A stretch of DNA of 64,000 nucleotides from Brevibacillus massiliensis (GTDB lineage Bacteria; Bacillota; Bacilli; Brevibacillales; Brevibacillaceae), in contig NZ_HE978542.1 in the NCBI RefSeq assembly GCF_000311785.1, positions 140,178-204,177 of the forward strand. The letters run 5' to 3'. The position numbers were made by a program, and so were the translations under genes. Below the pieces are notes generated by a model, which worked only from the letters and a program-made list of their open reading frames with translations, did no database searches and had not been told where the DNA came from. This document shows positions 53,006 through 57,105 of the stretch, piece after piece; position 1 is the stretch's first letter; the number at the start of each line of letters is the position of its first letter.

Positions 53006-53056
53006 GGACAAGATTGGTTTTGTTTATCAGCACTACATTGTCTTTAGGGGGAGTGT

Positions 53057-54742
53057 ATGAAATATCTTCGTTGCTACTTGTTGTTTTTCTGCTTGACGGC
53101 AGGATTTTTAGTCGGCTTTTCCTCGCCGGAGACCCCGAAGAAGGCCACATGGATCTGGCAGACGGAGTTGATCGAAACAAAGAAAGCGGAGATTCTGACG
53201 TTTGCCGAAGAAAACGGGGTGAACCTGATCTACCTGCGAATTGATCCGCAAAGAGCGTACAGCTACTATCAGCCCTTCATCCGGGAGGCCAATGCGGCGG
53301 GCATCGAGATCCACGCCCTGGGCGGCCATCCTCTCTGGGCACTTCAGGCGCATCGGGAGCGCATTCTCCATCTGCTTGACTGGGTCAAAAACTACAACAA
53401 GACTGCAGGCAGCGATGAGCAGATAATAGGCGTTCATCTGGATATCAAACCCTATCTGCTGCCGGAGTGGAACGAGGACAAGCCCTCTGTCCTGTCCCAG
53501 TGGATGGGCAACATCGAGGCCGTCACGGCAGCGGCCCGCAAGGATGCGCAGTTGGAAGTAAGCGCCGATCTTCCCGTGTGGCTCGATGATACTTTTGTCC
53601 CAGATGATCCAGATGCGACTATCAGCAAATGGATGATAAGCAAATTGGACCACATTACCTTACTGGCCTACCGGAATGCCCTTGACGGTCCCAACGGCAT
53701 CGCGGCGCTCGTAGAAAATGAGCTCCGGGAAGCAGACGAGCTGGGAAAGCCGGTGATCATCGCCGTCAATACAAAGGAAAGCCCGGGGGAGAGGCACACT
53801 TCGTTTTTTGACGCAGGCGCAGAAGAAATGGAACGTCAACTCGCCCTTTTGCCTGAGCGCCTGGGCAGCAGCCATCCTTCCTACGCGGGCAATGCCGTAC
53901 ACGACTATGTCAATTGGAAAAAACTAGCTCCTGGTAAAAAGAAACTCAAAAGAGGTACCTACATCTGGCAGGCCGAACTGGTTATTTCGGAACCGGAGAA
54001 GATTCTTGCCTTTGCCAAAAGCCATGCAATCAACCTGCTCTATGTACGGCTCGATCTGCAGCAGCCGTACGAGGCATACTCGGAGTTTGTCGGCAAGGCG
54101 GCCGCGGCGGGGATCGAAGTCCACGCTCTGGGCGGCCATCCGGGCTGGGCGCTGGAAGAAAACCGGGACCGCATGTTGAAGCTGGTCCATTACGTCCAGG
54201 CTTACAACCACAGTGTGGCGAAAAACCAGCAGTTTCGCGGCATCCATCTGGACATTGAGCCATACGTTCTGCCCGACTGGTATGAAGACACCGACTCCGT
54301 CCTGCGCCAGTGGATGGACAACATCGAGGCCTTCGTCGCCGAAGCAAAGCAAGAGGGTGATTTGGAGGTGAGCTGCGATCTTGCCTTTTGGCTGGACGGA
54401 ACCAGTGTTCCCGGCGATCCAGACATGTCCTTTTCCAAATGGATCATCAAGCAGCTGGACCATGTCACGATCATGGCCTTCAGGAATTACGCAGGGGGGC
54501 GCGGCGGCATCGTCCACCTCGTTGAAGAAGAGATCGGCTACGCCAATGAATTGGGCAAAGAACTGATCGTTGCCGTGGAGATGAAGCAGAGCCATGAAGG
54601 CGAATTCGTCTCGTTTTACGAATACGGCAAGGCGGAGATGGAGCGCCAGCTTGCGATCGTCACCGAACAGCTCAGCAAGCAGCCCTCGTACGGCGGAAAC
54701 GTGGTCCACGCCTACGACTATTGGAAAAACGCGAAGGAGTAA
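53057..54742 (+). CDS. Exported protein of two tandem barrel-like repeats, first copy degenerate
   Basis: 561 aa with an N-terminal signal segment (residues 1-24). Residues about 29-290 and 299-560 are two copies of one domain that align without gaps at an offset of 270. Each contains IWQ-EL, IHALGGHP-WAL, HLDI-PY-LP-W and WM-NIEA, a pattern like (beta/alpha)8 glycosidase-type barrels with a D-x-E pair. In copy 2 the motif is HLDIEPY (Glu401) and AVEMK (Glu508). In copy 1 these are Lys131 and Asn238. So copy 2 may be an enzyme and copy 1 a binding module. I do not recognise the family. AGGGGGAG precedes the ATG. Confidence 0.8.
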   Translation: MKYLRCYLLFFCLTAGFLVGFSSPETPKKATWIWQTELIETKKAEILTFAEENGVNLIYLRIDPQRAYSYYQPFIREANAAGIEIHALGGHPLWALQAHRERILHLLDWVKNYNKTAGSDEQIIGVHLDIKPYLLPEWNEDKPSVLSQWMGNIEAVTAAARKDAQLEVSADLPVWLDDTFVPDDPDATISKWMISKLDHITLLAYRNALDGPNGIAALVENELREADELGKPVIIAVNTKESPGERHTSFFDAGAEEMERQLALLPERLGSSHPSYAGNAVHDYVNWKKLAPGKKKLKRGTYIWQAELVISEPEKILAFAKSHAINLLYVRLDLQQPYEAYSEFVGKAAAAGIEVHALGGHPGWALEENRDRMLKLVHYVQAYNHSVAKNQQFRGIHLDIEPYVLPDWYEDTDSVLRQWMDNIEAFVAEAKQEGDLEVSCDLAFWLDGTSVPGDPDMSFSKWIIKQLDHVTIMAFRNYAGGRGGIVHLVEEEIGYANELGKELIVAVEMKQSHEGEFVSFYEYGKAEMERQLAIVTEQLSKQPSYGGNVVHAYDYWKNAKE

Positions 54743-54795: not shown

Positions 54796-57105
54796 TTAAA
54801 ACCGGGTCGAGACCTTGTATTCTGCCCGCTTTTCCAAATAGCGGTACAAGATGACGGCCGTCTCGGCCCTGTTCAGCTTCGCTTTCGGGTTATACTGCTG
54901 CCCCTCTCCGGCGATCAAACCGATGTCGCCTGCGATCGCCACAAATCCTTTATACCGGATCTCATCCCGGTCGACAAACGGCAGTTGGTAAAGCTTCTCA
55001 TGCTCCGCCAGCTTTTGGTACCCCAGCGCGGTAACGAGCAGCTTGGCCGCTTCTTCGCGAGTGATGGGACGATCCGGTTCAAAGGTCTTATCGGACGGAT
55101 CCAGCAGGTTATCCCTGACAGCCAGTTCTACTGCACTAAAATAAGGACTATCTTTGTCGACATCGTCAAAACTGGGTTTGATATCGCCAAAGCTGTCTCT
55201 GTACATAGTGGGATCGCCATACGTGCCGGCTGCGGTCAGAAACATATTCAAAAACTCGCCCCGGCTGACAATCTGGTCGGGGTGAACAAGGCCGTCCTGC
55301 GGTCGGATCGCCTTTAGTTTTACCATGTAGGATAATTCGTTTTCCGCATCGTGCCCTTTTATGTCGGACGGTTCGCTGTCAGACTCGGTCTGCTTCGGCT
55401 TTGCGTCCGCTCCCGACCAATCCTTCATCTCGCCTGTCTCGGCGTCGATGTACGCCAGTCCGGTCCAGGGCAGCTGCAGTTCGTAGACCAGCTTTGCCTC
55501 CGTCGGCTGGCTGCCGGACCGTTTTAGGTAAGGGTCGCTTGTGAGAATGTACCTCAGTTGGTACTCGGCACCTTTCAGGTACGTTTCTTTCGCCTGGAGC
55601 GCATCGATTGTCCCTTTTACCTCGGGGAATGCTGCCTCCTCATTCCAACGCAGCGCGTACTCGACTACCGTTCCGTCTTCGGCCGATACACCAACCTGAA
55701 CATATTGAGCCGACACAGGCACCCCGTTTACCCTGCGTTCAAACTGGAAGCTGTAGACAGGCTCGTCAGATCTCCGCTTGTCCAGCTGCTCGGATGACCA
55801 GAAAAGCTGATCCAGCTTGTCAGCATTTTGCTCCTTGACAAAGGCAAGGGCAGTCTCCTTCGCTTTTTCTTCGCTGACCGGAAACTTCGAAGCTTCCTTG
55901 CCTTCCTCCGCGTCTCTGCGGTATTTCTCGTACAGGTAGGGCGAAACTCTGAACTCCAACACCTTGCCCGTCTCCGCTTCGATCACGGCGCCGGGCCACC
56001 CGGTGCTGGAGTTGGCTGTGCTGTACTCCATCTGAACCTGCCAGACCGGCTTGTCCGTATTCCACCAGCCCTCTGATTTTCTGATGTTCGACAACTCGAC
56101 TTCCTCGGGGATGCGATACTCCCGCTTGAGGATGTCCAGCACTTCTTTTTCTGTCACCGGCGCATTTCGCTTAGGCGATGTGCTGGCCTGCTTCTCTCCC
56201 AAAGGCTGGTCGGACGGTTCTGGAAGCGTCACCGTTCGTCCCAGATAATCGACCGCCGTCCCCGTTTTCGCATCAAAGATGCTATTCCAAATAGCCGGAA
56301 TATATCCCAAGCGGATTTCTTCTTTTGGCTTTTCACCAGGGGCGGAGGCGATACCCGGGTTATCCGGTCTGATCGTGACATACGCCAGCTTCATCCGCAT
56401 CTGCTCGTCTACTTTTTGGTGAAAATCCCCCTGCGGAATCACACCGGAGGGGTCCTGGTACTGTATGTTTTGTCCGGAGTCACTGTTCAAGTAGACGAGC
56501 TCGCCGTTCCCGTTAATTTGGACCTGCACTCCCTGCGACATGACGGGTACCCCGTTTACCAGCCGCCGGAAAGAGACGTGATAGCTGTCACTCGGCCCCC
56601 GCACCACTTTGCCCCATTCGCCGCCATCTTCCGCGTACTCGAACGCTGCCTTGGAGCCAAACAGCTTGCCCACCTGGTCCTGGGCAATTTTGACCGCTTC
56701 TTCATACGTCACCTTAGGCGGAAAAGGGGCGGACATGTCCGATGCATCCCACCGGTTAAACTCCAACAGCTCACCTGTCATCGCATCGATTGTGACTCTA
56801 ACATTCCGAAAATCTCTCCCGCTCGACCTCCAGCTTACCTCCCAGGTAGGATGTTCATTGCCACCTCGCCAGGATCGTTGAAACGTAGCTTCCGGACCTT
56901 CGAAGCCGGACGGCGGCGTCATCACTTTTTCAGCGATGGCAATCGCTTCTTCCCGGGAGATTTTCGCATCTGCCTGTGACAACAGCTTGCTCGTCAGCAA
57001 ACCGGCAGCCGCGGCTCCCGCTGAAGGTACTGCTCCCAACACCAGCGATGCGGCAATCGCACACTGCAGCACAGCCCTGCTCTTTGAGAACTTGATCTGG
57101 TTCAT
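54796..57105 (-). CDS. YcdB/YcdC-repeat surface protein with S-layer homology motifs
   Basis: 769 aa. A signal peptide (about 1-33) is followed by YcdB/YcdC and PepSY-like units (ISREEAIAIAEKVM, VTYEEAVKIAQDQVG, VSEEKAKETALAFVKEQ, each followed by a strand with GELLEFNR-like or GKVLEFR turns). The last ~190 residues carry three S-layer homology motifs (FDDVDKDSPYFSAVELAVRD, ITREEAAKLLVTALG, LNRAETAVILYRYLEK) that bind pyruvylated cell-wall polymer. So it is anchored at the surface. The YcdB role is unknown; PepSY units often inhibit proteases. AAAGGGGGAG precedes the ATG. Confidence 0.85.
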   Translation of the reverse strand: MNQIKFSKSRAVLQCAIAASLVLGAVPSAGAAAAGLLTSKLLSQADAKISREEAIAIAEKVMTPPSGFEGPEATFQRSWRGGNEHPTWEVSWRSSGRDFRNVRVTIDAMTGELLEFNRWDASDMSAPFPPKVTYEEAVKIAQDQVGKLFGSKAAFEYAEDGGEWGKVVRGPSDSYHVSFRRLVNGVPVMSQGVQVQINGNGELVYLNSDSGQNIQYQDPSGVIPQGDFHQKVDEQMRMKLAYVTIRPDNPGIASAPGEKPKEEIRLGYIPAIWNSIFDAKTGTAVDYLGRTVTLPEPSDQPLGEKQASTSPKRNAPVTEKEVLDILKREYRIPEEVELSNIRKSEGWWNTDKPVWQVQMEYSTANSSTGWPGAVIEAETGKVLEFRVSPYLYEKYRRDAEEGKEASKFPVSEEKAKETALAFVKEQNADKLDQLFWSSEQLDKRRSDEPVYSFQFERRVNGVPVSAQYVQVGVSAEDGTVVEYALRWNEEAAFPEVKGTIDALQAKETYLKGAEYQLRYILTSDPYLKRSGSQPTEAKLVYELQLPWTGLAYIDAETGEMKDWSGADAKPKQTESDSEPSDIKGHDAENELSYMVKLKAIRPQDGLVHPDQIVSRGEFLNMFLTAAGTYGDPTMYRDSFGDIKPSFDDVDKDSPYFSAVELAVRDNLLDPSDKTFEPDRPITREEAAKLLVTALGYQKLAEHEKLYQLPFVDRDEIRYKGFVAIAGDIGLIAGEGQQYNPKAKLNRAETAVILYRYLEKRAEYKVSTRF

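Follow-up and report, generated by a model that had tools for sequence, protein, structure and literature searches.

A duplicated TIM-barrel protein of Brevibacillus massiliensis: a candidate exopolysaccharide glycosidase whose first copy is probably non-catalytic

In the GH18 glycosidases, the Glu of a D-x-E motif acts as the acid, and a Tyr, at a position that has its match in the proteins discussed here, holds the acetamido oxygen of the substrate (PMC12502790). The catalytic pair of TmGH191 is Asp156/Glu225 (PMC12054363), and in GH191 and GH114 the Asp is the nucleophile and the Glu the acid/base. In the insect group II chitinase OfChtII, some GH18 domains have Val, Asn or Gln in place of the catalytic Glu, and these domains are proposed to be substrate anchors (PMC5827449). 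The hydrolase PelA, finally, produces the secreted form of the polysaccharide Pel (PMC9894940).

We compare these systems with one gene in a stretch of 64,000 nucleotides, referred to below as the window (contig NZ_HE978542.1, positions 140,178 to 204,177, of assembly GCF_000311785.1). Its host, Brevibacillus massiliensis, is a soil bacterium. The gene encodes a protein that contains two copies of one domain, and its features are given below in coordinates of the window; throughout, conserved positions are numbered by copy 2 of the tandem protein.

53046..53053, + strand: ribosome-binding site AGGGGGAG, 3 bases upstream of the ATG at 53057 (sequence)
53057..54742, + strand: tandem-barrel open reading frame, 561 aa, ATG start (ORF and translation; orthologues elsewhere)
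53057..53128, + strand: export signal or membrane anchor formed by the hydrophobic N-terminus, about residues 1-24 (hydropathy profile)
53138..53932, + strand: copy 1, residues 28-292, predicted TIM barrel, probably non-catalytic (BLASTP of the halves; AlphaFold2)
53441..53449, + strand: D129-I130-K131 of copy 1, a D-x-E motif in which Lys replaces the putative catalytic Glu (residue survey, sequence)
53669..53671, + strand: Y205 of copy 1, retained Tyr after strand 6 (all 112 single-domain homologues and all 52 copies 1 have Tyr)
53768..53770, + strand: N238 of copy 1, closing strand 7 (51/52 copies 1 and 29/112 single-domain homologues have Asn)
53786..53788, + strand: G244 of copy 1, where copy 2 has the loop acid E514 (residue survey)
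53948..54736, + strand: copy 2, residues 298-560, predicted TIM barrel with the acids retained (BLASTP of the halves; AlphaFold2)
54251..54259, + strand: D399-I400-E401 of copy 2, following strand 4, putative catalytic motif that aligns on the GH18 DxE (model, survey, profile alignment)
54377..54379, + strand: D441 of copy 2, acid ending strand 5 (residue survey)
54479..54481, + strand: F475 of copy 2, Phe replacing an otherwise invariant Tyr after strand 6 (Phe in 51/52 copies 2)
54578..54580, + strand: E508 of copy 2, closing strand 7 (all 52 copies 2 have Glu)
54596..54598, + strand: E514 of copy 2, near-invariant loop acid after strand 7 (residue survey)

The internal duplication is real. 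By BLASTP the two copies share 51% identity across 261 residues (E = 1e-100), the alignment needing a single gap of one residue; at an offset of 270, 123 of 264 residues are identical, compared with 11-29 at neighbouring offsets. A preliminary description of this DNA had reported a gap-free repeat at offset 270 and suggested a gene duplication. The duplication is borne out by the identity of the halves, but the alignment is gap-free only to residue 269, after which the final ~22 residues pair at offset 269. The same description called the protein exported, in keeping with the hydrophobic stretch that follows MKYLR, whose 15-residue mean hydropathy of up to 2.1 supports export. It also drew attention to Lys131 and Asn238 of copy 1 opposite Glu401 and Glu508 of copy 2, and these differences can be read in the codons (AAA/GAG and AAT/GAG). 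Given a single assembly for the species, the AAA codon of Lys131 may be a sequencing error; however, Glu has given way to Lys in 12 Paenibacillus-like genomes too, on a separate branch, and the replacement is therefore tolerated in nature.

AlphaFold2 predicts two confident TIM barrels for the tandem protein (mean pLDDT 94.4), whose relative placement is uncertain at a pTM of 0.58; copy 2 modelled alone reaches a mean pLDDT of 97.6 and a pTM of 0.93. Among the Foldseek neighbours are Cwp19, PgaB, GH18 chitinases and SleL. Structure prediction and fold search thus agree with the barrel-glycosidase fold suggested earlier. In the copy 2 model, D399/E401 (strand 4), D441 (5), F475/R476 (6), E508 (7) and H551 (8) sit at the end of a strand or just past it; judged from these strand ends, the conserved residues would line the usual active-site end of the barrel. 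The best structural match over all the libraries searched is a giant-virus protein (BFVD A0A3G4ZKF2, Terrestrivirus), with a TM of 0.87 over the domain and 15% identity.

That no named family could be matched was noted at the outset, and it holds for the relatives as well: the tandem protein and 68 relatives gave only chance-level matches in Pfam and NCBIfam (Sec6, MEDS, AcuR, Erythro_esteras), and our literature searches found no paper on the family. The sole solved sequence relative is PDB 10yv (275 aa), which matches the family profile over the whole domain (positions 3-264, E = 1.8e-28) and was not among the Foldseek fold-library matches. On this full-length match and the shared D-x-E, the tandem protein appears to belong to the unnamed family of 10yv. 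The structure was deposited as 'Putative GH97 from Cellulomonas fimi'; we reject that label for the family, as neither the tandem protein nor any of the 68 relatives has a GH97 match in Pfam.

The relationship to GH18 must be stated with more care. When the family profile is aligned with GH18 domains of the same bacterial family, hhalign returns a probability of 95.8% (E = 7e-9, from shallow alignments), in a register that places GIHLDIE on GLNLDFE and MAFR on MGYD; the TIM-barrel controls score lower (GH13 62%, GHL10 65%). We take this as indicating a distant, superfamily-level homology. Membership of GH18 itself, by contrast, is not what the sequences indicate. Pfam Glyco_hydro_18 (PF00704) matches 0/68 family members at E <= 0.1. 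After strand 4, where GH18 has DxxDxDxE, the family has G-[IV]-H-x-D-[IV]-E, which keeps the last Asp and the Glu and has His for the preceding Asp. After strand 6, where GH18 has MxYD, single-domain members and copies 1 have MxYR and copy 2 has MxFR.

Which of the acids matter can be judged from a survey of 216 homologous domains: 112 single-domain proteins, 52 copies 1 and 52 copies 2. The E401 position is Glu in every single-domain protein and every copy 2, and in 38 of the 52 copies 1, the rest having Lys (13) or Gln (1). D399 and H551 are invariant over all 216. The E508 position is more variable, with 75 Glu, 29 Asn, 5 Asp, 2 Ser and 1 Gln among the single-domain homologues. Because 29 of those 112 proteins have Asn there, E508 is not an essential catalytic acid, and we rule it out as a catalytic residue. 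The preliminary description had taken D-x-E for the catalytic motif and E401 and E508 for a conserved acid pair; the motif, invariant in its Glu among single-domain homologues and in register with the DxE of GH18, is supported, and so is E401, but E508 as the second catalytic acid is not. A better conserved acid is E514, which is Glu or Asp in 110/112 single-domain homologues and an acid in 52/52 copies 2.

The two copies have diverged in different ways. The D441 position is Asp in 94/112 single-domain homologues and 51/52 copies 2, and Ala in 24/52 copies 1, these being from other Brevibacillaceae; at the H397 position, 23 Brevibacillaceae copies 1 have Gln. All 52 copies 1 nevertheless retain the residues at positions D399, Y403, W445, Y475, R476 and H551. 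In copies 2, D399, E401, E508 and E514 are present in 52/52, so that the acids are more conserved than in the single-domain relatives. Copy 2 is itself altered, not only at Tyr475 but at a near-invariant Pro and a near-invariant Trp, which have become Ala443 and Tyr302 (each in 51/52 copies 2). According to the tree and the survey, Tyr475 to Phe, Pro443 to Ala and Trp302 to Tyr were all fixed on the copy-2 branch.

Orthologues of the tandem protein occur in 29 other Brevibacillaceae genomes and also in Paenibacillus and Neobacillus, and the tandem lineage is spread across all three. The tree unites this lineage's copies 1 in a single clade (99/96) and its copies 2 in another (100/99), so that one duplication accounts for them. 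For one set of single-domain genes of Brevibacillus, two trees disagree on whether the branching came before or after that duplication. Within copy 1, E401 has been lost at least 3 independent times: to Lys here, to Lys in a Paenibacillus-like genus, and to Gln in one Brevibacillus. The Paenibacillus-like Lys is nested in a clade with Glu (100/99), apart from the branch of the gene studied here. The three losses are all confined to the copy-1 subtree, which holds 10.66 of 72.76 units of tree length (~15%; chance probability about 0.003). Between close species pairs, omega spans 0.035-0.33 in copy 1 and 0.04-0.25 in copy 2; copy 1 is therefore maintained by purifying selection, slightly less strictly than copy 2. 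Neutral decay of copy 1 is ruled out by these values.

Relatives were also found outside the tandem lineage. One genome encodes an independently arisen tandem of the family (L149:7556-9292), 27% identical, which keeps the acids in both copies and adjoins two relatives of the 740-aa operon protein described below. Lone family domains, about 27-32% identical, occur on three virus-collection contigs of IMG/VR (L252, L253 and L254); the domain on L252 (2983-3819) keeps its D-x-E intact and shows no obvious signal for export, and a thymidylate synthase-like gene is found nearby.

The gene neighbourhood bears upon the likely substrate. In Brevibacillus the tandem gene is usually the last of an exopolysaccharide operon, which encodes in order a 740-aa protein, a HEAT-repeat protein, a PgaC-like GT2, a response-regulator protein, a UDP-HexNAc-type dehydrogenase, GlmS, a GlmU-like protein, a single-domain member of the family, and the tandem protein. 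GlmS, GlmU and the dehydrogenase point to a polymer with amino sugars and uronic residues. In B. massiliensis the tandem gene lies away from the operon, between cstA and a YcdB/SLH gene; the genome has two GT2 operons, each adjoining a single-domain paralogue, and three single-domain paralogues with intact motifs in all. The adjoining YcdB/SLH gene (window 54796-57105, minus strand) encodes a protein that looks exported and combines PepSY, YcdB/YcdC repeats and SLH domains; beyond it lie genes for a response regulator (LytTR) and a histidine kinase (5TMR-LYT).

We surveyed co-occurrence in 301 genomes of the class, 70 of which have the family. The GT2 is present in 68 of these 70 and occurs without the family in 13 genomes; by genus, family and GT2 occur together in 19/21 (p = 2e-12, with genera treated as independent and kinship uncorrected beyond genus). 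A family gene lies within 12 kb of the GT2 or the 740-aa gene in 43 of the 70. Moreover, three genomes carry a natural fusion in which the family domain and the 740-aa operon protein share one frame of 1024-1026 residues (G006:C1:2204028-2206976, or L066:915-3992; also in G012 and G023). The 740-aa protein is present in 79/301 genomes of the class, and it (L141:6053-8275) and its homologues have no sequence match in Pfam, NCBIfam or the PDB.

On balance we favour, as somewhat more probable than all else, an exported two-domain, GH18-like TIM-barrel glycosidase of an unnamed family, acting on an amino-sugar (HexNAc/HexNAc-uronate) exopolysaccharide and carrying a non-catalytic, binding copy 1; the catalysis, the substrate and the binding role of copy 1 are what we infer. 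The general acid of the ancestral, single-domain form would be E401, which follows strand 4, aided by D399 and the Tyr after strand 6. As in GH18, cleavage would proceed through the acetamido group of the substrate itself, with no need of a second catalytic carboxylate; the GH18-like profile match suggests such a mechanism, and the roles of the Tyr and the DxE Glu in GH18 suggest that catalysis in the family was ancestrally substrate-assisted. One intragenic duplication in an ancestor of the Brevibacillus/Paenibacillus line would then have produced the tandem. Copy 1 lost acids by routes that differ between lineages while retaining aromatic and polar pocket residues, and selection maintains it, most likely as a module that holds the polymer and so feeds copy 2 or anchors it; copy 2, with its acids, would be the likely catalyst. 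The earlier proposal that copy 1 has turned non-catalytic is supported as probable, with the addition that copy 1 is still under selection. The conserved Tyr to Phe change in copy 2 suggests an altered rate, product or substrate, and copy 2 may possibly be impaired for want of the Tyr that would hold the acetamido group.

That last point bears on an alternative that we think unlikely yet worth weighing, namely that both copies are non-catalytic and the tandem is a two-site, lectin-like matrix or surface protein that binds exopolysaccharide, with the single-domain paralogues as the enzymes. Copy 1 has lost acids, copy 2 has lost Tyr475, Pro443 and Trp302, and the same genome does encode three single-domain paralogues with intact motifs; however, copies 2 keep D399, E401, E508 and E514 without exception and D441 in 51/52, and the solved relative 10yv, too, aligns a Phe at the Tyr475 position. 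We give appreciably less weight to a glycosidase that lyses peptidoglycan or spore cortex and whose first domain is inactivated; the preliminary description had named cell-wall and spore-cortex glycans for enzyme tests. Among the hosts, Paenibacillus and Neobacillus are spore-forming genera, and the fold neighbours include SleL, a cortex-lytic GH18 enzyme, and Cwp19, a peptidoglycan lytic transglycosylase. Against this, the family co-occurs with exopolysaccharide machinery and is fused to it, and Pfam finds no wall-binding or LysM domain in the tandem protein; the genomic association makes a cortex or cell-wall substrate less likely than an amino-sugar exopolysaccharide.

Strong purifying selection and the kept pocket residues of copy 1 would also suit a copy 1 that is still an enzyme but of altered chemistry, whose substrate could for instance be a charged uronate polymer, with Lys or Ala serving a new mechanism. 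The replacements vary by lineage, however (E401K, E401Q, D441A, H397Q), as would be expected of loss rather than of one new mechanism, and we regard this reading as very improbable. Returning to the favoured exopolysaccharide glycosidase, its biological role might resemble that of PelA or PgaB, in trimming an amino-sugar exopolysaccharide during synthesis (PMC9894940). More tentatively, and with doubt prevailing, one could see here a new glycosidase family on a new Bacilli amino-sugar exopolysaccharide, in which a fused duplicate was repeatedly disarmed and its partner retuned by the change of Tyr to Phe, a complementary specialisation rather than the decay of one copy.

Although Pfam and NCBIfam have no entry for the family and no function has been named for it, its genes sit inside or close to an exopolysaccharide operon that is widespread among Bacilli. 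If the favoured reading is true, it would name the likely hydrolase for that operon's polymer. It would also supply a replicated natural experiment on how an enzyme domain becomes one that binds, the same invariant Glu having been lost at least three times and always from the same copy; the independent tandem with acids in both copies offers a ready control.

Comparison with known systems places the protein as follows. It shares with GH18 (chitinases, SleL/YaaH) the fold, the profile match, the D-x-E after strand 4 and the M-x-[YF] after strand 6, but differs in lacking a PF00704 match, in having HxDxE for DxDxE and MxYR for MxYD, and in its short barrel of 265 residues. GHL10/Cwp19 (PF02638) has no Pfam match in the family, and its hhalign score is comparable to that of the GH13 control. 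The solved relative 10yv conserves the D399, E401, D441 and E508 positions in a pairwise alignment, whereas it is a single-domain, actinobacterial protein that differs at R476, E514 and H551. The GH114/GH191 alpha-galactosaminidases are likewise barrels that act on amino-sugar exopolysaccharides, and GH191 is among the structural matches of the tandem model, but the Asp/Glu pair described for TmGH191 is arranged otherwise than D-x-E, and there is no sequence match. PgaB (GH153) and PelA (GH166) are barrel hydrolases encoded alongside the synthesis of an amino-sugar polymer, PgaB being a structural neighbour; they have no sequence match to the family and a single hydrolase domain, and the tandem protein lacks a fused deacetylase domain. 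OfChtII is a eukaryotic cuticle chitinase with true GH18 domains and chitin-binding domains, but it, too, fuses several barrels of which some are without the catalytic Glu; by analogy with its proposed anchors (PMC5827449), copy 1 may serve as a binding arm.
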